Of a DNA stretch of 64,000 nt, positions 33,824 through 44,647 are shown in pieces. The DNA is from Streptomyces sp. HUAS 15-9. Lineage in GTDB: Bacteria; Actinomycetota; Actinomycetes; Streptomycetales; Streptomycetaceae. The notes beneath the pieces are model-generated. The model did no database searches. It saw only the letters and a program-made list of their open reading frames with translations, and had not been told where the DNA came from. Location: positions 5,890,001 through 5,954,000 of the forward strand of contig NZ_CP106798.1 in the NCBI RefSeq assembly GCF_025642155.1, in the 5' to 3' direction. The position numbers and the translations under genes were made by a program. Numbering within the stretch: position 1 is the first letter of the stretch; each line of letters begins with the position of its first letter.

Positions 33824-35065
33824 TCAAGCGGCATCCGCTAGTTGAGTGTCTGATGGGGCGGCGAAGGCCACCGTTTCGCTGTAGTGGACGCGGTGGGTGA
33901 GGCAGTGGTGGAGGCAGCCGAGCATGCGGTTGAAAAGGTTGCGCTGAGCGGCGGTGTGGCGGTCTCCGGCCTTGCGGCGGCGGTCGTAGTGGGCTCTGGC
34001 GCCGTCTGAGTGGGCCATGGCGGCGAAGGCCCACACGTAGCCGACACCGGCCAGTCGCTGGTTCTTGACCCGGCGGGCAAGGACGGCCACGCTCTTGCCG
34101 GAGGCCCTGGTGATCGGGGCCGAACCGGCGTAAGCCTTGAGGCTTTTCGCGTCGGCGAAGCGGGATCGGTCGTCGCCGATCTCGGCGAACACCCGGGCGC
34201 CGCTGAGCGCGCTGAGCCCTGGGAAGCCGGTGATGATCTCGGCGTCCGGGTGCTGCTTAAAAGACTCCATCGCGGCCTCGGCGAGGTCGTCGGCGCTGGC
34301 GCAGGCGGCATCCAGCTGCCGCAGCAGGGCGAGGGTCTGGCGGCCCATGGCCTCTTCGACCAGCGGGAGCTGGCGCATCTGCGGGGCGCGCAGCGCGGTC
34401 TGGAGACGCTCTGCCTCTGCATCGATGGTGTTCTTGCGACCGGCCTTCTTCAGCAACGACCGCAACTGGGCGCGGGTCAGCTGGGCGGCCTGGCCGGGGG
34501 TGGGGGCGGCCGCAAGCAGGACGCGGGCGATGGGGTGGCAGACGCCCTCGCGGCGCACGCCGACGGAGGCGAGGAAGCCGGGGAAGTACGCGCGGAGGTG
34601 CGAGGTGAGCTTGTTGGCGGCCTGGGTGCGGTCCCACACGGCGTCCTGCTGAGCGCGGGCGAGGACCGCGATTGCCTGGGCGAGCTCGGAGTCGGCCGGC
34701 AGCTGGCGGTGGGCGGCGGCGTCGGTGCGCAGGATGTTCGCGAGTACCACGGCGTCGAGGTGGTCGGACTTCTTGCGGGAGACCGCATGCCGGTCGCGGT
34801 AGCGTGCTGCGGCCAGCGGGTTGATCGCGTAGATGGGGCGGCCGGTCGCGCGCAGGCAGGCGACCAGCAGCCCGCGGGAGGTCTCGATGGCCACCGGAAT
34901 GGGAGCTTCGGCGCTGTCGCCGTGCTCGGTAAGCATCTGCAGGAGGTGGGCCAGGCCGTCGGCGTTGTCGTCGATACGGGCCTTGTCCAGTAAGGATCCG
35001 GCGTTGTCGACCAGGACGACGTCGTGGTGGTCGCTGGCCCAGTCGATGCCGCAGAACACGCTCAA
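33824..35065 (-). CDS. IS110-family transposase (DEDD/Tnp20)
   Basis: A 413-residue recombinase. The N-terminal RuvC-like DEDD domain has FCGIDWASDHH (D8), VAIETSRGLL (E) and KKSDHLDAVVLANIL (two Asp). The C-terminal transposase-20 domain has GFPGLSALSGARVFAEIGDDRSRFADAKSLKAYAG, with the serine nucleophile region near RASGKS. It appears full length and unbroken. Related IS110 proteins are guided by a bridge RNA transcribed from the element's own non-coding end. Confidence 0.9.
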   Translation of the reverse strand: MSVFCGIDWASDHHDVVLVDNAGSLLDKARIDDNADGLAHLLQMLTEHGDSAEAPIPVAIETSRGLLVACLRATGRPIYAINPLAAARYRDRHAVSRKKSDHLDAVVLANILRTDAAAHRQLPADSELAQAIAVLARAQQDAVWDRTQAANKLTSHLRAYFPGFLASVGVRREGVCHPIARVLLAAAPTPGQAAQLTRAQLRSLLKKAGRKNTIDAEAERLQTALRAPQMRQLPLVEEAMGRQTLALLRQLDAACASADDLAEAAMESFKQHPDAEIITGFPGLSALSGARVFAEIGDDRSRFADAKSLKAYAGSAPITRASGKSVAVLARRVKNQRLAGVGYVWAFAAMAHSDGARAHYDRRRKAGDRHTAAQRNLFNRMLGCLHHCLTHRVHYSETVAFAAPSDTQLADAA

Positions 35066-35590: not shown

Positions 35591-36048
35591 TCGTGGGCCG
35601 CAAGCGGAGCATCGTCACCGACACCCTCGGACTACTGCTCGCGGTACTGGTCACGGCCGCGAGCGTGCAGGACTCCGCAGCAGGAACTCACCTGATCGAC
35701 CAGGTCGCGGCCGCTCACCCCACCATTCGCAAGGTCTGGGTCGATGGCGGCTACCGCCAGCACCTCGTCGAGCACGCCGCTCAGCTCGGCATCGACATGG
35801 AAATCGTCCAACGCACCCCCGGGACCAGGGGGTTCACTCCGCTGCCTAAGCGCTGGACCGTGGAGCGCACGTACGGATGGCTGATGTTCCACCGCCGCCT
35901 GGCGCGCGACTACGAGACCCTGCCCGCCCGCTCCGAAGCCATGATCCACCTCGCCATGACCGACCTGATGGCCCGCCGCCTCACCGGCGAAGCCACCATC
36001 TCCTGGCGCGACCCGACACCTGGGGATCAAACACCAATTCCGGGATGA
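35590..36048 (+). pseudogene. IS5-type transposase, second half
   Basis: Continuation of the transposase begun at 33535: VGRKRSIVTDTLGLLLAVLVTAAS, IRKVWVDGGYRQHLVEHAA (second catalytic Asp), KRWTVERTYGWLMFHRRLARDYE (catalytic Glu region). With the frameshift in the first half and the IS110 insertion, no functional product is expected. The 249 bases after it hold nothing recognisable. Confidence 0.8.
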
Positions 36049-36297: not shown

Positions 36298-37138
36298 GTG
36301 AGCCAGCGGAAGCCGTACCCCAGCGACCTTTCCGACGCCCGATGGGCCCTAATCGAGCCGACGTTGACGGCCTGGAGAAAAGCCCGGCTCGACCGCAGAC
36401 CCACCGGGCAGCTCTACCAAGGTCGACCTGCGCGACGTATTCAACGCACTCCTCTACATCAACCGCACGGGAATCCCCTGGAAATACCTCCCACACGACT
36501 TCCCGAACTACGGCACCGTCTACGCCTACTATGCCGCCTGGCGCGATGAGGGAATCCTCGCCCAGCTCAACTACGACCTGACCGGGCTCGCCCGCGTGAA
36601 GGAAGGGCGCAAGCCCGAACCCACAGGGTCCGTCATCGACACCCAGAGCGTGAAGACCTCCACCAACGTGCCCCTGACCAGCCAGGGAACGGACGCCGCC
36701 AAGAAGATCGTCGGCCGCAAGCGAGGCATACTCACCGATACGATCGGACTCATCCTCGCCGTGACTGTCACCGCCGCGAGCCTCTCCGAGAACGCCGTAG
36801 GAATACGTCTTCTCGACCAAGCCAAGAAGACGTATCCAACCATCGCCAAGAGCTGGGTCGACACCGGCTTCAAGAACGCCGTCATCGAGCACGGCGCACG
36901 TCTCGGAATCGACGTCGAAGTCGTCAACAGAAACCCCGGAGTTCACGGCTTTCACGTTGTCAAAAGACGCTGGGTAGTCGAGCGAAGCCTGGGTTGGCTT
37001 ATGTTGCACCGGCGCCTTTCTCGCGATTACGAGACCCTTCCCGCCAGCTCCGAGGCCATGATCCACGTCGCCTCGATCGACAACCTCGCCAAGCGCATAA
37101 CGGACGAGACGACACCAACCTGGCGAGGGACTTACTAG
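36298..37138 (+). pseudogene. second IS5-type transposase, split over two frames
   Basis: The first frame begins MSQRKPYPSDLSDARWALIEP (typical IS5/DUF4096 N terminus). Homology moves to the next frame near 36416 (VDLRDVFNALLYINRTG...) and runs to the stop at 37138, with DTQSVKTSTNV, KSWVDTGFKNA and RRWVVERSLGWLML as DDE motifs. IS5/IS427-group elements can use programmed frameshifting, so this may be a working two-frame gene. The extra G at CCAAGGTCG could equally be a mutation. Confidence 0.7.
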
Positions 37139-37288: not shown

Positions 37289-37320
37289 CTGTATGTCCGC
37301 TGTACGGGCCGGTCTATGGC
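37289..37320 (+). promoter_or_regulatory. SARP-type operator and -10 of the first Cys-rich peptide gene
   Basis: Two direct heptamers, CTGTATG (37289-37295) and CTGTACG (37300-37306), start 11 bases apart. The second is followed, after exactly 8 bases, by a -10-like TATGGC (37315-37320). This is the geometry known for SARP activators, and the identical geometry recurs before the second peptide gene. The peptide ATG is 38 bases downstream of the -10, behind AAGGAGGAGGGG. Confidence 0.7.
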
Positions 37321-37357
37321 GCGTGCGTACCGTCTGCCGAAAGGAGGAGGGGAACTC

Positions 37358-37555
37358 ATGATGCCGTCATTGAGCAAGGTCGCCGACCGGGTGCTCGAGC
37401 GTTTCGTGCCGAAGGCGTCCGCGTCCGCGGACACCAGCTGGTGGGAGTACTGCTACTGCACCGCCGACTGGCGCAAGATCTACCGCCTGTGTCACGTGGT
37501 GGGCGGACGAACCTCGTGCGGAAAGTGCGAGAACGTCCGCTACATCGGCTGCTGA
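37358..37555 (+). CDS. secreted six-cysteine peptide precursor 1 (candidate new RiPP/bacteriocin)
   Basis: A 65-residue peptide. A 24-residue leader (…RVLERFVPKASASA) without a hydrophobic core ends in an A-x-A motif followed by Asp25-Thr. The 41-residue core has Cys at 32, 34, 45, 54, 57 and 65, the block CHVVGG-x-TSCG-x-C, and many aromatic residues (WWEYCYC). A paralogue sits at 43349-43552. Downstream lie a MauE-like protein, a thioredoxin and an exporter. I infer AxA cleavage by the local S26 peptidase and disulfide maturation; no lanthionine or radical-SAM enzyme is nearby. I do not recognise a named peptide family. Confidence 0.75.
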   Translation: MMPSLSKVADRVLERFVPKASASADTSWWEYCYCTADWRKIYRLCHVVGGRTSCGKCENVRYIGC

Positions 37556-37636
37556 CAGAACACGAGTGCGGGGCGGGCGGCGCTGGCACGCGTCCGGGCC
37601 GTCCGCTCCCGTGCCCCACATACGAGGACTTCGCGC

Positions 37637-38207
37637 ATGACCTACGTCGCTTTCGCATGCCGGATTCTCTTGTTCGGTGTCTTTCTGCTGGCGCTCGCCG
37701 GAAAGGTGCGCAGCAGGACCGCCTTCGCCTCGTTCGCCCGGTCGATCACTGACCTGCGGCTCTTTCCCCGGAAGGTGTCGAGGGCGGCGGCCGCCGCGGT
37801 GATCGCCGGAGAAGTCGCGGTACTTCTGCTGCTCGTGCCCCCGCGAACGGCGCCCCTGGGGCTGGCGGCCGCGGTGCTCCTGCTGCTCGCCTTCACCGCG
37901 GGCATCGTGGTGGCACTGCGCGGCGGACGCCGCGCCCCGTGCCGTTGCTTCGGAGCATCGGCCACTCCGCTGGGACCGCTGCACGTGGTCCGCAACCTGA
38001 TCCTGGCCGGAACGGGCGCGGCCGGCTTCGCGGTGATGACCGCGCTGCCCGCCGCCGGATGGTACTCACGCCGGCGGCGGCGCGGTCGCGGCGGTCGCGG
38101 CGATCGTCGCGGCCCTGCTGGTCGCCCGGCTCGACGACCTGGCCGCCCTCTTCCGCACCGGCCGGCCGGCCCCGGTCGCCGCCCGTCCACGCGCCGTCCA
38201 CAAGTGA
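37637..38207 (+). CDS. MauE/DoxX-type membrane protein, apparent frameshift
   Basis: Begins MTYVAFACRILLFGVFLLALAGKV, with four hydrophobic helices and a CRCFG motif after the third, as in MauE-family redox membrane proteins that support disulfide formation (MauE serves methylamine dehydrogenase maturation). Near 38055-38075 homology moves to the +1 frame, where a proper fourth helix (AVAAVAAIVAALLVARLDDLAALF) and stop at 38205-38207 follow. The unshifted frame instead gives an Arg-rich tail that runs into the next gene. Either a single-base sequencing error in a GC run or a recent mutation. It follows the peptide gene by 81 bases. Confidence 0.75.
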
Positions 38208-38217
38208 GGTCCCCTTC

Positions 38218-38721
38218 ATGCCTTTTCTGATTGCCGCCGTCGTCCTGGTCGGTGTGCTGTGCCTGTTCGACCTGCTCCTCACTTTCGCGGTGCTGCGCCG
38301 GCTGCGCGAGCACACCGCGGAACTCGAACGGCTGGCGGGTCGGCCCGGCTTCTCCTCGTACGACCCGGGCATGCTGGTGGGCCACCGGCTTCCGGAAGCC
38401 GCCCGGGCATCCGGCGCCACCCTCGTGGCCTTCTTCGACGCGCAGTGCGACACCTGCCACGACCACGCGCCGAAGTTCGCCGTCCGGGCCCGCCGGTACG
38501 GGGCGCTGGCGGTGGTGTCGGGCGACGGGGCGCGCGCCGACGAGCTGGTCGCCGCGGTGGGTCCGGACGCGGCGGTGATCCGAGGTGAGGACGCCCACGC
38601 CGTGGCCGACGACATGGGCATCCAGGCCTTCCCCACCTTCGTCCTGGTCGACGGGGAGGGGTCCGTGGTGCAGGCGTCCACCGAGCTGGCCGAGCTGCCC
38701 GAGCCGGCCCCGGCGGCGTGA
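38218..38721 (+). CDS. membrane-anchored thioredoxin-like protein (MauD/TlpA type)
   Basis: A 167-residue protein. An N-terminal membrane helix (about 3-25) is followed by a thioredoxin fold with the redox pair C77-x-x-C80 (DAQCDTCHDH) and the cis-proline loop AFPTFVLVD. The active site faces outside, suited to forming or isomerising disulfides in exported peptides. It pairs naturally with the MauE-like protein just upstream. Its stop overlaps the exporter start (GTGA). Confidence 0.85.
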   Translation: MPFLIAAVVLVGVLCLFDLLLTFAVLRRLREHTAELERLAGRPGFSSYDPGMLVGHRLPEAARASGATLVAFFDAQCDTCHDHAPKFAVRARRYGALAVVSGDGARADELVAAVGPDAAVIRGEDAHAVADDMGIQAFPTFVLVDGEGSVVQASTELAELPEPAPAA

Positions 38722-40712
38722 GCGTGGAGAACGGACCGCAGGCCGGGCCCGCCGGGCGGGCGGTCACGGCGGGGCCGAGGCGGACCGTGCGGCACCTCGG
38801 GGTCGCCTGGTCGATGTGCTGGCGGGCGGGACCGTGGCACGCGCTGGCGTACTCGCTCGTCACCGTCGTCCTCGGCCTGCTGCCCACCGCCACGGCATGG
38901 CTGACGAAACTCGTCGTGGACGACCTGGCCGGCGGACGACCGGAACACATGCTGGAGTTGGCGGCGGGCCTGGCCGCCGTGGGCCTCGCGGCCGGTGTGC
39001 TGCCGCACCTGAGCGGTTACCTGCAGAACGAACTGGGCCGCCGGCTGGACCGCTTGATGCAGGACCGCCTGTACGGCGCCGTCAACCGGCTCCAGGGGCT
39101 GTCCCGGTTCGAGAACCCCGGGTTCCGTAACGACCTCAACATGGCCATGCAGGCGTCCGGGGGCGGGCTCGGCCCCGTCACCACGGGCCTGTTCGACACC
39201 GCGCGCAACGTCATCACGCTCGTGAGCCTGCTCGGGACGCTGGCGCTGCTGAGCCCGTCGATGGCCGCACTCGTCACGGTGGCCGCCGTCCCCGCGCTCC
39301 TCGCGCGGCTCTCCCTGTCCCGGCGCAGGGTCGGCATGCTCGCGGGAGTCTCCCCCGCGGTCCGCCGCCAGGTCTTCTACTCGCTGCTTCTCACCGACGT
39401 CCGCAGCGCGATGGAGACCCGGCTGTTCGGCCTCGGCGACTTCCTCAAGGGGCGCATGCTCACGGAGCTCGCGATCCGGCAGGAGGGCGAACAGCGGCTC
39501 GACCGCCAGGAGGCGCGGACGCAGTCCCTCCTCGCGCTGCTGTCCACAGTGGTCGCGGGACTGGGACTAGTGTGGGCGGTGCGGGCCGCCACGACCGGGA
39601 CCCTGAGCGTGGGCGACGTGACGGCGTTCGTCGCCGCCGTGGCCGGTACCCAGGCCGCCCTGACCGGTCTGGTGGACAACGTCGCGATGGCGCACGAGGC
39701 GCTGCTCGTCTTCGGGTACCACGACAAGGTGATGTCGCTCCCCGACGACCTGCCGTCGGCGGACCCTTCGGGGCGACTGCCGGCCCTGCGCCGGGGCATC
39801 GAACTGCGCGGCGTCTGGTTCCGGTACGCCGAGGACCATCCGTGGATTCTCCGGGGCGTCGACCTGACCGTCCCGCACGGAACCGCGGTCGCCCTCGTCG
39901 GGCTGAACGGCGCGGGGAAAAGCACCCTGATCAAACTGCTCTGCCGTTTCTACGATCCGACCCAAGGGGCGATCTACTGGGACGGAGTGGACATCCGCGA
40001 CGTGCCGCCGGCCGAACTGCGCCGTCGTATAGGCGTGTTGTTCCAGGACTACATGTGTTACGACCTGACGGCGGCGGAGAACATCGGCGTCGGGGAACTC
40101 CAGGCGCTCGACGACCGCCCGCGACTGCGCGAGGCCGCCCGGCTCGCCGATGCCGACGGCACCGTGGAGCGGCTGCCCCGTGGCTACGACACCATGCTCA
40201 GCCGCATATTCGCCGACCAGGCCGAGGACGACCCGCAGTCCGGGGTCGTGCTCTCCGGCGGCCAGTGGCAGCGGCTGGCGCTCGCCCGCACCCTGCTGCG
40301 CGACGACCGGGACCTGCTGATCCTGGACGAGCCCAGTGCCGGCCTGGACGCCCAGGCGGAGGCGGAGATCCACGCCCGGCTGCGCAAACACCGGGCGGGG
40401 CGCACCAGCCTGCTCGTCTCCCACCGGCTCGGCGCGGTCCGCGAGGCGGACGCGATCGTCGTGCTGGAGGGCGGCCGGATCGTGGAAAGGGGAACGCACG
40501 AGCAGCTCATGGCCGGGGAGGGCGAGTACGCGCGTCTGTTCGCCATCCAGGCCGAGGGCTATCGCGCCCCGGACGCCCCGGACGCACCCGAGGCCGTGGA
40601 CGCCCCGGACGCACCGCAGGCCCCGGACGCACCGGCTCGTCCGGACGTGGCGGACCGGCCCGGGGCACCGGCGGCGGAGCCGTCGCACGCGGTCATATCG
40701 CCGATCGGCTGA
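38718..40712 (+). CDS. ABC exporter (fused membrane and ATPase domains), no peptidase
   Basis: A 664-residue half-transporter. Six-helix ABC membrane domain (about 30-320), then an ATPase: Walker A LNGAGKST, Q-loop LFQDYM, signature LSGGQWQRLALA, Walker B LLILDEPSAGLD, H-loop VSHRL. There is no N-terminal C39 peptidase, so leader removal needs another protease. The last 60 residues are a repetitive PDAPDAPEAVDAPDAP tail. GTG start coupled to the thioredoxin gene. Most likely exports the six-cysteine peptides. Its 3' end overlaps the convergent SARP gene by 20 bases. Confidence 0.9.
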   Translation: MSVENGPQAGPAGRAVTAGPRRTVRHLGVAWSMCWRAGPWHALAYSLVTVVLGLLPTATAWLTKLVVDDLAGGRPEHMLELAAGLAAVGLAAGVLPHLSGYLQNELGRRLDRLMQDRLYGAVNRLQGLSRFENPGFRNDLNMAMQASGGGLGPVTTGLFDTARNVITLVSLLGTLALLSPSMAALVTVAAVPALLARLSLSRRRVGMLAGVSPAVRRQVFYSLLLTDVRSAMETRLFGLGDFLKGRMLTELAIRQEGEQRLDRQEARTQSLLALLSTVVAGLGLVWAVRAATTGTLSVGDVTAFVAAVAGTQAALTGLVDNVAMAHEALLVFGYHDKVMSLPDDLPSADPSGRLPALRRGIELRGVWFRYAEDHPWILRGVDLTVPHGTAVALVGLNGAGKSTLIKLLCRFYDPTQGAIYWDGVDIRDVPPAELRRRIGVLFQDYMCYDLTAAENIGVGELQALDDRPRLREAARLADADGTVERLPRGYDTMLSRIFADQAEDDPQSGVVLSGGQWQRLALARTLLRDDRDLLILDEPSAGLDAQAEAEIHARLRKHRAGRTSLLVSHRLGAVREADAIVVLEGGRIVERGTHEQLMAGEGEYARLFAIQAEGYRAPDAPDAPEAVDAPDAPQAPDAPARPDVADRPGAPAAEPSHAVISPIG

Positions 40713-42567
40713 GCACCGGCTCCCTGTAGCGGACCTGGTCGCGGGCGGCGAGCTCTCTCGCGTACAGGCCCGCGAGATCAGGCATCCGGAACCCCTCGCG
40801 CGCCACCGGAGTGAGCAGCCCGACGGTCACCAGGCAGTCCAGGGCCCGCTCAGTGGCCGGCAGGGCGGCGCCGATGGCCTCGGCGGCGCGCGTCGCGCTG
40901 AAGGGCGCCCCGAGGGTGCACAGCCGGCGGAACGCCCGTGCGGCGGCGCGGTGTTCGGGGTCGTGGGCCGACAGCTCCCGGTAGCTCCTGGCGTACGACG
41001 AGCGCATCGTCAGGTCGGCGACCCGTAATTCGTCGAGGGTGCGCGCCGGGTCGCGCAGCCGGGCGGCGAGTCCGGCGAGGCTCCCCTGCGGGCGGCCGGC
41101 GCAGCGGGCCCCCGCGATGCTGAGCGCGAGGGGGTTTCCGTGGCAGAGCCGTGCGATCTCCCGCGCCGCCCGGGGCTCCGCGGTGACGCGCGGGTCCCCG
41201 GCCAGCAGGGACAGCAGGCGGACGGAGTCCGTTTCGTCCAGGGGGTCCACCGGCACATGCACCGCGTCCAGCGCGGGCAGGACGCTCCGGCTCGTGACCA
41301 GCACCGCGCACCCCGGGCCTGCGGGCAGCAGCGGAAGGACTTGGCCGCGGTGGAAGGCGTTGTCGACGACCACGAGGACGCGCCGGCCCGCGACCATGGA
41401 CTGGTAGTAGGCCGAGACCTCGGAGAGGGCGGTCGGCACGTCCGCCCTGGGCATGCCGAGCGAGCGGAGGAAGTGGCGCAGCACGGTGACCGGGGTCAGG
41501 GGGCCGGCGCCGGCCCGCGGGCTGTCGAGATCGACGTAGAGCTGGCCGTCGGGGTAGTCCGCGGCGGCCCGGTGGGCGACGTGCAGGGCCAGCGCCGACT
41601 TCCCGCGTCCGGCCGGCCCGTGCAGCACCACGACCGGCGCCCCGGCGGTCGTCCCGTCCCGGGTGCGCAGGGCGTCCCGCACCAGGGACGTCTCGTGCGC
41701 CCGTCCGGCGAACGGCCCGGGAGCCCGGGGGAGCTGGCGCGGCACCGTACCGGTGGCCGGGTGCGCGGGCCGCGCCGTCGTCAGGGCGGTGACCTCCCGG
41801 ACGGACGTCGGATCCGGTTCCCGGCGCAGCACGGCCTGTTGGGTGCGGCACAGCTCCGGCCCCGGGTCCAGGCCGAGTTCGTTGCGCAGCGTTTCGCGGG
41901 CGTCGGTGAAGGCGGCGAGCGCGCCGGCCGTGTCGCCGCTGTGGTGCAGGGCGAGCATCAGGCGGCTGCGCAGCCGTTCGCGCAGGGGATGCTGGCGCAC
42001 GGCCCGGCGCAGGGTGTCGACCACGGCCGCCCCGGTACCGCGCGCGAGTTCCACGTCCGCCTGTGCCTCGATCGCGCTCAGGTACCGCTGGGTGAGGTCC
42101 GCCGCGATGCCCTCCAGGGCGGGTCCTTTGACGACGTTCTCCAGTGGCGCCCCGTGCCAGAGTGCCAGGGCGCCGCCCAGTGCGCGGGTGGCCCCCGCCA
42201 GGTCGTGCCCGGCCGCCGCCTGCCGTGCCCGCTCGACGAGGGCCTCGAAGCGGGCGATGTCGGTCTCGCCGTCGTCCGTCCGGAGCGCGTAGCCGGAGCG
42301 GGACGTGATCAGCCGGGGGTGCGTGCCGTCCGCGGCGGGCGGCAGGAGCCGGCGCAACTGCATCACATACGTGCGCAGATTGGGCACCGCCGACCGGGGC
42401 GGGGTGCCGCCCCAGAGTTCTTCCACGAGGGCGGGCACGGAGACGACGCCGCCCCGGTGGGCGACCAGCATCGCGAGAATGGTGCGCTGTTTGTCAGCGG
42501 CTATACGGACGGTCTGGCCACCGTCCACTATTTCCAGCGGGCCGAGGGCCCGGAACTCGACGGTCAT
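40693..42567 (-). CDS. SARP-family regulator with NB-ARC domain (AfsR-like)
   Basis: A 624-residue activator. A winged-helix OmpR-type DNA-binding domain (1 to about 95: FRALGPLEIVDGGQTV, LVEELWGGTPPRSAVPNLRTYVMQLRR), a bacterial transcriptional activation domain with TPR-like helices (about 100-245), then an NB-ARC ATPase with P-loop HGPAGRGKSALALHVA and LVVVDNAF. SARPs bind direct heptamer repeats 11 bp apart upstream of -10 elements. Exactly such repeats precede both peptide genes. It follows the S26 peptidase gene by 29 bases on the same strand. Confidence 0.9.
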   Translation of the reverse strand: MTVEFRALGPLEIVDGGQTVRIAADKQRTILAMLVAHRGGVVSVPALVEELWGGTPPRSAVPNLRTYVMQLRRLLPPAADGTHPRLITSRSGYALRTDDGETDIARFEALVERARQAAAGHDLAGATRALGGALALWHGAPLENVVKGPALEGIAADLTQRYLSAIEAQADVELARGTGAAVVDTLRRAVRQHPLRERLRSRLMLALHHSGDTAGALAAFTDARETLRNELGLDPGPELCRTQQAVLRREPDPTSVREVTALTTARPAHPATGTVPRQLPRAPGPFAGRAHETSLVRDALRTRDGTTAGAPVVVLHGPAGRGKSALALHVAHRAAADYPDGQLYVDLDSPRAGAGPLTPVTVLRHFLRSLGMPRADVPTALSEVSAYYQSMVAGRRVLVVVDNAFHRGQVLPLLPAGPGCAVLVTSRSVLPALDAVHVPVDPLDETDSVRLLSLLAGDPRVTAEPRAAREIARLCHGNPLALSIAGARCAGRPQGSLAGLAARLRDPARTLDELRVADLTMRSSYARSYRELSAHDPEHRAAARAFRRLCTLGAPFSATRAAEAIGAALPATERALDCLVTVGLLTPVAREGFRMPDLAGLYARELAARDQVRYREPVLSRSAI

Positions 42568-42596
42568 GCTTGTGGCTGTCCCCCGGTATGTGATTT

Positions 42597-43049
42597 TTAC
42601 AAAGCACTGCCGCCCAGTCGGCGGACCGCCACGCCCATGATCCGGTCGGCCTCGAAAAATCCCCGATGACGGGAATCAATACTGTCCGGATTGTCGCCGA
42701 GCACCACCAGCCGCCCGTCCGGGACCTCAGTGAGGTCTCCGCCTCCCGGTATTCCTTCCGGAATACGGTCCCCGGGAAGCGCGGCGGCCCGCTTGATGTT
42801 CCATGCGCGGTCGCTCAGCGGTTCGTAGTCGCCCGTCCTTCGCGGGGGCTGCAGTACGACGATGTCCCCGGTCCGCACCTGGTCGACGGTGCGGCGTTCC
42901 ACCACCACCCGGTCGCCGGGCGAAAGCGTCGGCGCCATGCTGGTGCCTTCCACGGTGACCACGGTGTATCGGCCGCGTATGCGGAGCGCGGCAAGGACGG
43001 CGCCAGCGAGGCCGACAAGGAACCCAACGGCAATCAACAGAACAGGCAT
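42597..43049 (-). CDS. S26-family signal peptidase
   Basis: A 150-residue membrane-anchored protease. One N-terminal helix (about 3-22), catalytic Ser37 in VEGTSMAPTL, general-base Lys86 in AWNIKRAAALPGD, and the later VVLGDNPDSIDSRHRGF box. It is smaller than housekeeping SipS/SipW-type enzymes, as pathway-dedicated copies often are. The local peptide leaders end in A-x-A, the signal peptidase I preference, so it is the likely leader protease. ATG 43049 is preceded by GGGGGGTG. Forms an operon with the SARP gene, divergent from peptide gene 2. Confidence 0.9.
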   Translation of the reverse strand: MPVLLIAVGFLVGLAGAVLAALRIRGRYTVVTVEGTSMAPTLSPGDRVVVERRTVDQVRTGDIVVLQPPRRTGDYEPLSDRAWNIKRAAALPGDRIPEGIPGGGDLTEVPDGRLVVLGDNPDSIDSRHRGFFEADRIMGVAVRRLGGSAL

Positions 43050-43255
43050 AGACACCCCCCGTGGGTTCCGCCGGTCGGTGTGATCGTGCCCGCCCGCCGT
43101 ATTGCCTGTCAATGTATTTCTTCTTGCCCCCGCGGGAAACCCGGGGGTGCGTCGCGCCCTGTTCGCCCCCTTTGCAATTCGCGTGGAAGTTGGGTGTCTA
43201 TGGGTGTATCGGGCGGTTCGCTGGACACGGTTTGCGGACTGGTCTCTTCCGCTCG

Positions 43256-43287
43256 CTGTATCCGAACTGTACGAAGCGCCGTATCTG
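43256..43287 (+). promoter_or_regulatory. SARP-type operator and -10 of the second Cys-rich peptide gene
   Basis: CTGTATC (43256-43262) and CTGTACG (43267-43273) start 11 bases apart. After exactly 8 bases comes TATCTG (43282-43287). The layout and heptamer sequence match those before the first peptide gene 6 kb away, while surrounding bases differ, which argues for selection. The rest of 43050-43348 is the divergent promoter region of the S26-SARP operon. Confidence 0.7.
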
Positions 43288-43348
43288 CCGTTGCTACGGT
43301 CGAATCTGCTTCTTTCCGGCAGTGCGTACTCGAAAGGAAACGGCAGTG

Positions 43349-43552
43349 ATGGGATTCATGGGGACGATGGGCGACAAGATTCTGGGCAGGCTCGTGCCCA
43401 AGGCCGTGGCCCAGGCGGACACCACCTTCGAGAAGATCTGCTACTGCAGCCAGCGCAACAGCTTCTACTACCGGCAGATCTGCCATGTGGTCGGTGGCTA
43501 CACGTCCTGCGGCACCTGCTACCTCAGCTCGCCCTGCCGGCCGTCGGCCTGA
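43349..43552 (+). CDS. secreted six-cysteine peptide precursor 2
   Basis: A 67-residue paralogue of the peptide at 37358. The leader (GDKILGRLVPKAVAQA) again ends AxA before Asp24-Thr. Core cysteines are at 31, 33, 45, 54, 57 and 63; CYC, Y-R-x-x-CHVVGG and TSCG-x-C are shared, with one extra residue between CYC and CHVV. The C-terminal tail differs (SSPCRPSA against a terminal Cys). Two related but distinct peptides suggest a two-component product or target variants. AAAGGAAA lies about 10 bases before the ATG. It has its own operator and a strong terminator. Confidence 0.75.
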   Translation: MGFMGTMGDKILGRLVPKAVAQADTTFEKICYCSQRNSFYYRQICHVVGGYTSCGTCYLSSPCRPSA

Positions 43553-43563
43553 CGGTGACATGG

Positions 43564-43600
43564 CGATCGGGCCGCGGACGCGCCGTCCGCGGCCCGATCG
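43564..43600 (+). terminator. perfect 16-bp hairpin terminator after peptide gene 2
   Basis: CGATCGGGCCGCGGAC (43564-43579) pairs without mismatch with 43585-43600 around a 5-base loop, 11 bases after the stop. It lacks a T run, as is normal in Streptomyces. It makes the second peptide gene a single-gene transcript. Confidence 0.75.
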
Positions 43601-43763: not shown

Positions 43764-44647
43764 GTCGGTGAGGTTCTTCGAGCTGGCCACCGATCAGGTG
43801 ACGGTCGATGAACCGCAACGAGCGAGGCCACCGAGCTGTTGATCGAGATGTCTGACGTCTCAACCACGCTGCTCGGGGCCTCGTTGGTCATCTATCCTGC
43901 CGCACTCGACCTGCCCCATGCGCTCGTGGAGTGGGTCACCATGCTTCTCGTCACCCGCGAGGGTGACCGGCGGTGCAAGCTCCGCCCGTCCCAACGCGCG
44001 ACGGTGGCACTGGTGTACCTGCGCGAACACACGACCCTGGCGAAGATCGCTGCTGGGTTCGGGATCAGCGAGTCCACCGCCCACGCCTACACCAGCGCAG
44101 TCATCCACCTGCTCGCCGAACGAGCGCCAGGTCTGCTGAAGGTCCTGCGCGAGGCCGATGTGGACTTCGTCCTGCTGGACGGCACGCTCGCCGAGTGCGA
44201 CCGGGCCGGCGACGGACGGGCCGACTACTCGGCCAAGCACCGCCGACACGGAGTGAACGTGCAGGTGGTCACCGACCCGGACGGCCGGCTGCTGTGGCTG
44301 TCACCCGCCCTGCCGGGCCGAGCTCACGACCTGACCGCTGCCCGTACCCACCGGATCATCCGCATCTGCGAGCGCCAGGGCGTTCCCGTCCTGGCCGACC
44401 TCGCCTACCAGGGCGGCGGCCCTTGGCTGACCACGGGCATCAAACGCAGACCCCTGCAAGAACTCACCCTCACCGAGAAGACCGTCAACCGGGCCCTGGC
44501 CGCGACACGGGCACCGGTCGAACGCGGCGTCGCACGACTGAAGTCCTGGAGGATCTTCCGCAGATCCCGATGCAGCCCAAACCGCATGACGTCAATCGCC
44601 AAAGCCATCCTCACCCTGGAGCGGCAACGCTGAAGAAGCTCAGTGAG
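43764..44647 (+). mobile_element. IS5-superfamily insertion sequence
   Basis: Contains one intact transposase gene. Candidate imperfect terminal repeats of about 25 bp: 43764-43788 and the complement of 44623-44647 share TGAG-x-TTCTTC and a terminal GCC. No clear target duplication was found, so the edges are approximate. Confidence 0.5.
43848..44633 (+). CDS. IS5-type DDE transposase (DDE_Tnp_4)
   Basis: A 261-residue transposase, apparently complete. An N-terminal helix-turn-helix ([18 protein letters not shown]) is followed by the DDE domain: [12 protein letters not shown] (Asp), [14 protein letters not shown] (Asp), and [17 protein letters not shown] (Glu). ATG 43848 or TTG 43839 are possible starts. 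It lies between the peptide cluster and att copy B. Confidence 0.85.

Follow-up and report, generated by a model that had tools for sequence, protein, structure and literature searches.

Cysteine-rich precursor peptides sharing a leader and a MauE/thioredoxin/ABC/S26 cassette: a probable family of secreted disulfide-rich peptides in actinobacteria

What becomes of two small cysteine-rich peptides whose genes enclose a set of redox, export and protease genes in a Streptomyces genome? The peptides, precursor A (37358-37555, 65 amino acids (aa)) and precursor B (43349-43552, 67 aa), are encoded on the plus strand of a 64,000-nucleotide stretch of Streptomyces sp. HUAS 15-9 (contig NZ_CP106798.1, positions 5,890,001 to 5,954,000), which is referred to here in its full length as the window. 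The original prediction held that they are exported by an ABC protein, cut by an S26 signal peptidase and oxidised with the help of a MauE-family protein and a thioredoxin. Comparison with related loci makes it likely that the window peptides belong to a large family of secreted, leader-guided peptides rich in disulfides, found in actinobacteria, which would mature in this manner.

Co-occurrence of precursor and cassette

The set of genes was compared across 59 loci, comprising the window, 18 loci reached via the peptide and 40 chosen by a thioredoxin profile alone. A MauE gene was found in 55 of these, an ABC exporter gene in 58, an S26 gene in 58 and a SARP regulator gene in 36. A small Cys-rich gene whose leader approximates to G-D-R-L-L-x-R-L-V-P-x(3)-A-x-A is present in 58. 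The window and the 18 peptide-reached loci all contain thioredoxin, ABC, S26 and MauE genes, with the MauE of one locus (L061) seen by profile only.

The reverse test, starting from the redox protein, used a profile built from 17 thioredoxins. Among 150 genomes of a second family 59 gave a match, as did 28 of 150 in Streptomyces, counting the source genome. The 40 stretches opened were mostly the tops of the respective lists: 20 came from approximately 135 places in the second family, and 20 covered 23 of the 39 places in Streptomyces. In 39 of the 40, a precursor was found beside the thioredoxin gene. Homologous peptide-cassette pairs, on which the original prediction had staked itself, therefore do occur in other genomes. 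A later test concerned plasmids of S. atratus (L170) and S. clavuligerus (L169), two records opened of 342 reached by ABC-gene DNA similarity; one and two six-Cys, leader-bearing precursors, respectively, are located just before MauE. The cassette is thus plasmid-borne in both cases, with an integrase gene nearby in the former, and the gene table used, which is known to have gaps, lacks the S. atratus precursor.

A number of further observations concern the setting of the cassette. In four Streptomyces loci (L005, L031, L033 and L054) it is flanked on one side by a branched-chain amino-acid transporter operon and on the other by a thioesterase/DNA polymerase I region (names assigned by eye), possibly a shared insertion site. 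Locus L154 contains two cassettes in opposite orientation, approximately 10 kb apart, with identical precursors and with the ABC gene in several pieces in both. The source genome yields a single match to the thioredoxin profile, and no cassette partner was found for a second MauE-family gene in this genome (L171, G000:C1:29000-46999). An extra gene group present in seven loci far from the cassette was set aside, as the four members tested proved to be assorted response regulators.

Precursors, leaders and cores

The first alignment, of 12 precursors, shows no variation at any of the six Cys. A 12-precursor profile matched 55 proteins at E≤1 in a database of 5.8 billion proteins, with E values from 1.3e-29 (best) to 4.2e-3 (weakest), and the window precursors are therefore more than a chance occurrence. 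This database search places homologues in Streptomyces, Amycolatopsis, Nonomuraea, Streptosporangium and others; those bearing a source name are labelled hypothetical or uncharacterized, and none of the 12 precursors tested matches a Pfam or NCBIfam model. The close family is rare in whole genomes. Its profile matches 8 of 293 genomes of the order (five clear, source included, and three judged to be chance), 6 of 392 of the genus, 10 of 396 in a phylum sample (the source genome alone clear) and 11 of 394 of the class, these four samples overlapping. The class matches comprise two Streptomyces and nine genomes of the second family named above, in which the leader is of the same kind and the cores differ. 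Within the source genome, the profile finds the two window copies and one further hit at E 2.7.

The family is extended by a precursor finder in which a hit must carry the leader pattern and four or more Cys, together with a start codon and a Shine-Dalgarno-like motif. The finder gave 69 hits in 526 kb of cassette areas (near-identical copies and one false open reading frame (ORF), L031:10666, included) with candidates in 52 of the 59 areas, compared with three hits in 600 kb of flanks and five in 2631 kb of codon-block-shuffled sequence. By reading, the three flank hits are family members too, located just outside the area limits. On a looser reading, a precursor is also present in six of the seven finder-negative loci (L006, L059, L138, L142, L144 and L147). 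L031:10666 was dropped by hand prior to the leader and cysteine counts; for the cysteine counts two precursors in L006 and one each in L059, L138, L144, L147 and L142 were added by hand, and these counts cover 72 distinct precursors.

The number of Cys is six in 48 of these, eight in 11, ten in nine, four in two, and twelve and seven in one each. It is thus even in 71 of 72, as opposed to 27 of 43 small Cys-rich ORFs taken as controls from the same DNA. The cores fall into 25 single-linkage groups, between which blastp finds no similarity at E≤1e-4. Cys number is wholly even within 24 of the groups, and 44 different spacing patterns occur. A single leader type is therefore shared by 72 precursors with 25 groups of core, and the precursor genes cluster with dedicated maturation and export genes at the 59 loci. 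Both features are typical of ribosomally synthesised and post-translationally modified peptides (RiPPs). In one locus (L141:7079-12965) six different six-Cys precursors surround a single cassette, and a precursor elsewhere (L133:8887-9090) has twelve Cys in a 41-residue core.

Every one of 58 aligned family members has Pro18, Ala22 and Ala24, the two alanines forming an AxA motif at the end of the leader. Six Cys are found in 57 of the rows of this alignment, and in the single seven-Cys row the additional Cys lies in an N-terminal part that is too long. The AxA motif is also present in all 13 clear precursors selected by visual inspection of a list that was built without the leader pattern; another eight-Cys ORF of L142 stands outside both these 13 and the 72.

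Organisation and regulation of the window locus

In the window, precursor A consists of a 24-aa leader (37358-37429, ending ASASA) and a 41-aa core (37430-37552), with a second ATG at 37361, and precursor B of a 23-aa leader (43349-43417, ending AVAQA) and a 44-aa core (43418-43549). Neither has a Pfam or NCBIfam match. The original prediction described these genes accurately: each core has six Cys and starts with Asp-Thr, the CYC and CHVVGGxTSCGxC motifs are present in both, and the leaders end VPKASASA and VPKAVAQA. It also placed MauE, thioredoxin, ABC, SARP and S26 genes between the precursors, and all five are present; what it missed is that the frame of the first is broken, along with the SARP-type boxes ahead of the two precursors and the larger family in which cores are hypervariable.

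The MauE-family membrane protein (37637-38207, plus strand) scores 97.6 bits against PF07291 (cut-off 27). Its frame is interrupted near 38063 and the C-terminal part continues in another frame, with a stop at 38205-38207, while MauE is intact in all five relatives compared. Strains with an intact MauE include S. djakartensis JCM 4957 and Streptomyces sp. NRRL S-118, which have an identical core A (calculated monoisotopic mass 4873.13 Da with three disulfides and 4879.18 Da reduced); for core B the calculated mass is 4974.12 Da in S. djakartensis and 4987.14 Da in the window. The window gene is either a damaged copy or the result of a sequencing error. The thioredoxin-like protein (38218-38721, plus strand) has a CDTC motif and, by eye, an N-terminal membrane segment. 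It has sub-cut-off thioredoxin hits only and no MauD-named model among its NCBIfam hits; an alignment of 17 such proteins, the window copy among them, shows no variation at either CxxC Cys or at one Pro. Its stop is overlapped by the start of the ABC exporter (38718-40712, plus strand), a fused permease and ATPase. As predicted, no C39 peptidase domain was found among the Pfam hits of the exporter at E≤1. The 18 uncut ABC frames, window included, are 605-692 residues long when counting begins 25 residues ahead of the aligned start, and C39 in the relatives was judged by this length only.

The minus strand encodes the SARP regulator (40693-42567), AfsR-like and shorter, with BTAD and NB-ARC domains identified by Pfam, and the S26 signal-peptidase-like protein (42597-43112; PF10502). 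The latter contains the Ser of a GTSM and the Lys of an IKR motif, residues kept in 19 of 19 proteins, and an N-terminal membrane segment recognised by eye; its real start may be a Met near 43049.

Two SARP-type boxes precede the precursors on the plus strand, box A at 37290-37306, with two TGTA repeats 11 bp apart, and box B at 43257-43273. The pattern TGTAYN6TGTACG, devised after looking at the window, has two matches in the 64 kb (0.00 expected), at 37290 and 43257, respectively 68 and approximately 90 bases before precursors A and B. Candidate -10-like hexamers read by eye, TATGGC (37315-37320) for precursor A and TATCTG (43282-43287) for precursor B, both on the plus strand, lie 7 bp behind the last heptamer. 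According to PMC10936776, the repeats of SARP promoters are spaced at 11 or 22 bp, and 8 bp separate the last of them from the -10 element. The 59 loci (2252 kb, both strands) contain 28 occurrences of TGTA-N7-TGTA, and 18 of these fall in the 17.7 kb lying within 260 bp before a precursor. These 18 represent 14 distinct sequences and come from 14 loci, a SARP gene being present in 13 of the loci.

Proposed maturation route and its alternatives

We propose that the SARP regulator would turn on both precursor genes via the 11-bp-repeat boxes, and that an amphipathic leader would bring the reduced precursor to its dedicated ABC exporter. The S26 peptidase, acting outside the membrane, would cut after AxA to release cores of 41 and 44 residues, and the membrane thioredoxin, re-oxidised by MauE, would pair the six Cys into three disulfides. 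The conserved cassette, the invariant AxA, the retained S26 Ser and Lys, the even Cys number and the leader hydropathy all favour the export, cutting and oxidation that had been predicted. We infer the step order, redox direction, cutting enzyme and activity, while the disulfides are suggested by the even Cys number. On balance we also favour the wider view that a single leader and a MauE/thioredoxin/ABC/S26 cassette serve actinobacteria as a general platform by which widely differing Cys-rich cores are exported, trimmed and stapled, and that the family is a hypervariable mini-protein arsenal and a new class of ribosomal peptide.

Several observations weigh against the proposed route. The peptide product is undetected. 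With the thresholds applied, no MauE was found in four of the 59 loci (L126, L128, L131 and L133), no ABC in L137, no S26 in L165 and no SARP in 23, while L148 is the sole locus in which no precursor was seen. The loci are also not independent, with the window, L004 and L032 near-identical. The L147 precursor has seven Cys. A box precedes the precursors in only 13 of the 36 SARP-bearing loci, and the motif is thus valid for part of the family only, given the 23 such loci without it. The ratio of non-synonymous to synonymous substitution rates (dN/dS) lies between 0.10 and 0.39 in nine of 12 precursor pairs, yet is 0.81 in one and approximately 1.0 in two, so purifying selection is supported for part of the pairs only. 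For precursor A the values are 0.10 and 0.24 against two relatives, and for precursor B 1.03 against a very close relative with few changes and 0.39 against another. Finally, no immunity gene was recognised, and the window copy may be non-functional because its MauE is out of frame.

As for function, competition peptides are the most likely role of the mature cores, at about even odds, and an antimicrobial role is a guess. A serious contender, if slightly short of probable, is that the same mechanism yields signals, developmental surface peptides or enzyme inhibitors and not antimicrobials, which would fit both the lack of a recognised immunity gene and the acidic nature of some cores (13 of 65 with a pI (isoelectric point) of 7 or less).

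It is also possible, tending towards doubtful, that the window copy is a decaying island, as its broken MauE lies between insertion elements. Transposase genes of IS110 and DDE type (33824-35065, 35593-36048, 36596-37138 and 43839-44633) bracket the cassette, which may have been transferred, given that they enclose it. Against decay, the window genes other than MauE have open frames, and where they align with their counterparts in L004 and L032 the identity is 97-100%; the MauE break could also be a sequencing error. An APH-family phosphotransferase gene (PF01636, 45188-46159) is located past the right-hand transposase.

Other core modification, such as a cyclophane, thioether or epimer, by an unrecognised or distant enzyme appears unlikely. 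Many RiPP enzymes remain unknown, and many window-family cores are rich in Trp or Tyr. However, in the 17 loci compared no further common gene family adjoins the cassette (ORFs of at least 60 aa, 25 largest groups), and, as originally predicted, the Pfam and NCBIfam families of the cassette proteins include no known RiPP-modifying enzyme.

Less likely still is that the precursors leave by the Sec route, with the S26 protein an extra signal peptidase and the ABC protein exporting something else. AxA is an ordinary signal-peptidase motif, and the window S26 protein exceeds the cut-off of the signal peptidase I model (TIGR02227, 69.7 versus 47 bits). In contrast, the leaders have conserved D and P positions, and an ABC gene is near the thioredoxin gene in 58 of 59 loci. 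Judged by hydropathy only, 65 leaders contain no Sec-type hydrophobic h-region, the maximal 12-residue Kyte-Doolittle mean having a median of 0.72 and a highest value of 1.54, in agreement with the original view that ordinary Sec export is improbable. The hydrophobic moment is above that of shuffled leaders in 64 of 65. Amphipathic leaders lacking a strongly hydrophobic stretch argue for recognition by the exporter as opposed to the Sec route. Least probable of all is a metallopeptide whose Cys bind a metal or cofactor, with MauE and thioredoxin keeping them reduced or loading the centre: window-family cores do have CxC and CxxC pairs, and the His of their CHVVGG motif is mostly retained, but across the other core groups neither the His nor this Cys pattern is kept, while an even Cys number nearly always is, and PMC7794033 quotes a link between MauE and the formation of disulfides in methylamine dehydrogenase.

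Returning to the proposed disulfide route, the nearest published systems are compared here from excerpts of their descriptions. decRiPPter (Kloosterman et al. 2020, PMC7794033) put forward as RiPP candidates three mauE families from Streptomyces, of which one also has mauD, with Cys-rich precursors alongside; in the open-licence PMC literature from 2018 on, this paper alone has both mauE and RiPP as whole words. Because these candidates were named in 2020, the present system is not wholly undescribed, and the original prediction went too far in calling it so. The window likewise has mauE beside a Cys-rich precursor in Streptomyces, whereas the decRiPPter precursors have at least eight Cys compared with six in the window, and 8-12 in some other loci with the same cassette. 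As described, the decRiPPter families come without a leader motif, an S26/ABC cassette definition, a product or chemistry, and the role of MauE is called speculative. Compared by description only, the present family likely overlaps with them. New here are the scale (one leader and cassette with approximately 25 core groups), the even Cys number, the SARP-type boxes and the reciprocal test.

Pediocin PA-1 with PedC, and other bacteriocins with thiol-disulfide oxidoreductases, similarly combine a leader, a dedicated ABC exporter, a thioredoxin-fold CxxC helper and a disulfide core (PMC4919988). They differ in that the pediocin ABC protein helps to cut the leader (PMC4919988), whereas the window ABC protein was found without C39 and is accompanied by S26 and MauE instead; the lack of a recognised immunity gene is a further difference. 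Actifensin and laterosporulin are small, six-Cys, defensin-like bacteriocins of variable sequence, and actifensin is actinobacterial and sometimes present in several copies per operon, but this operon as described differs from the present cassette (PMC6989792). Double-glycine bacteriocins have C39 on the exporter, in contrast to the window ABC protein. Methylamine dehydrogenase maturation (MauE, MauD) resembles the proposed route in pairing a MauE-family protein and a thioredoxin-like partner with a Cys-rich secreted substrate; no light-chain (PF02975) match was found in the source genome, although a control search was likewise without a match.

There is a fair case that these leader-guided, exported, disulfide-bonded ribosomal peptides will constitute a new class once a product is seen. 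Streptomyces and their relatives are heavily mined, yet the 12 precursors tested escape existing family models, and hypervariable Cys-rich cores on one leader and cassette may therefore represent an untapped source of natural products. The common leader and compact four-gene cassette would permit systematic discovery of disulfide-rich mini-proteins, and the cassette could perhaps serve as a bacterial production system for them, in addition to providing another setting in which the role of MauE can be tested.

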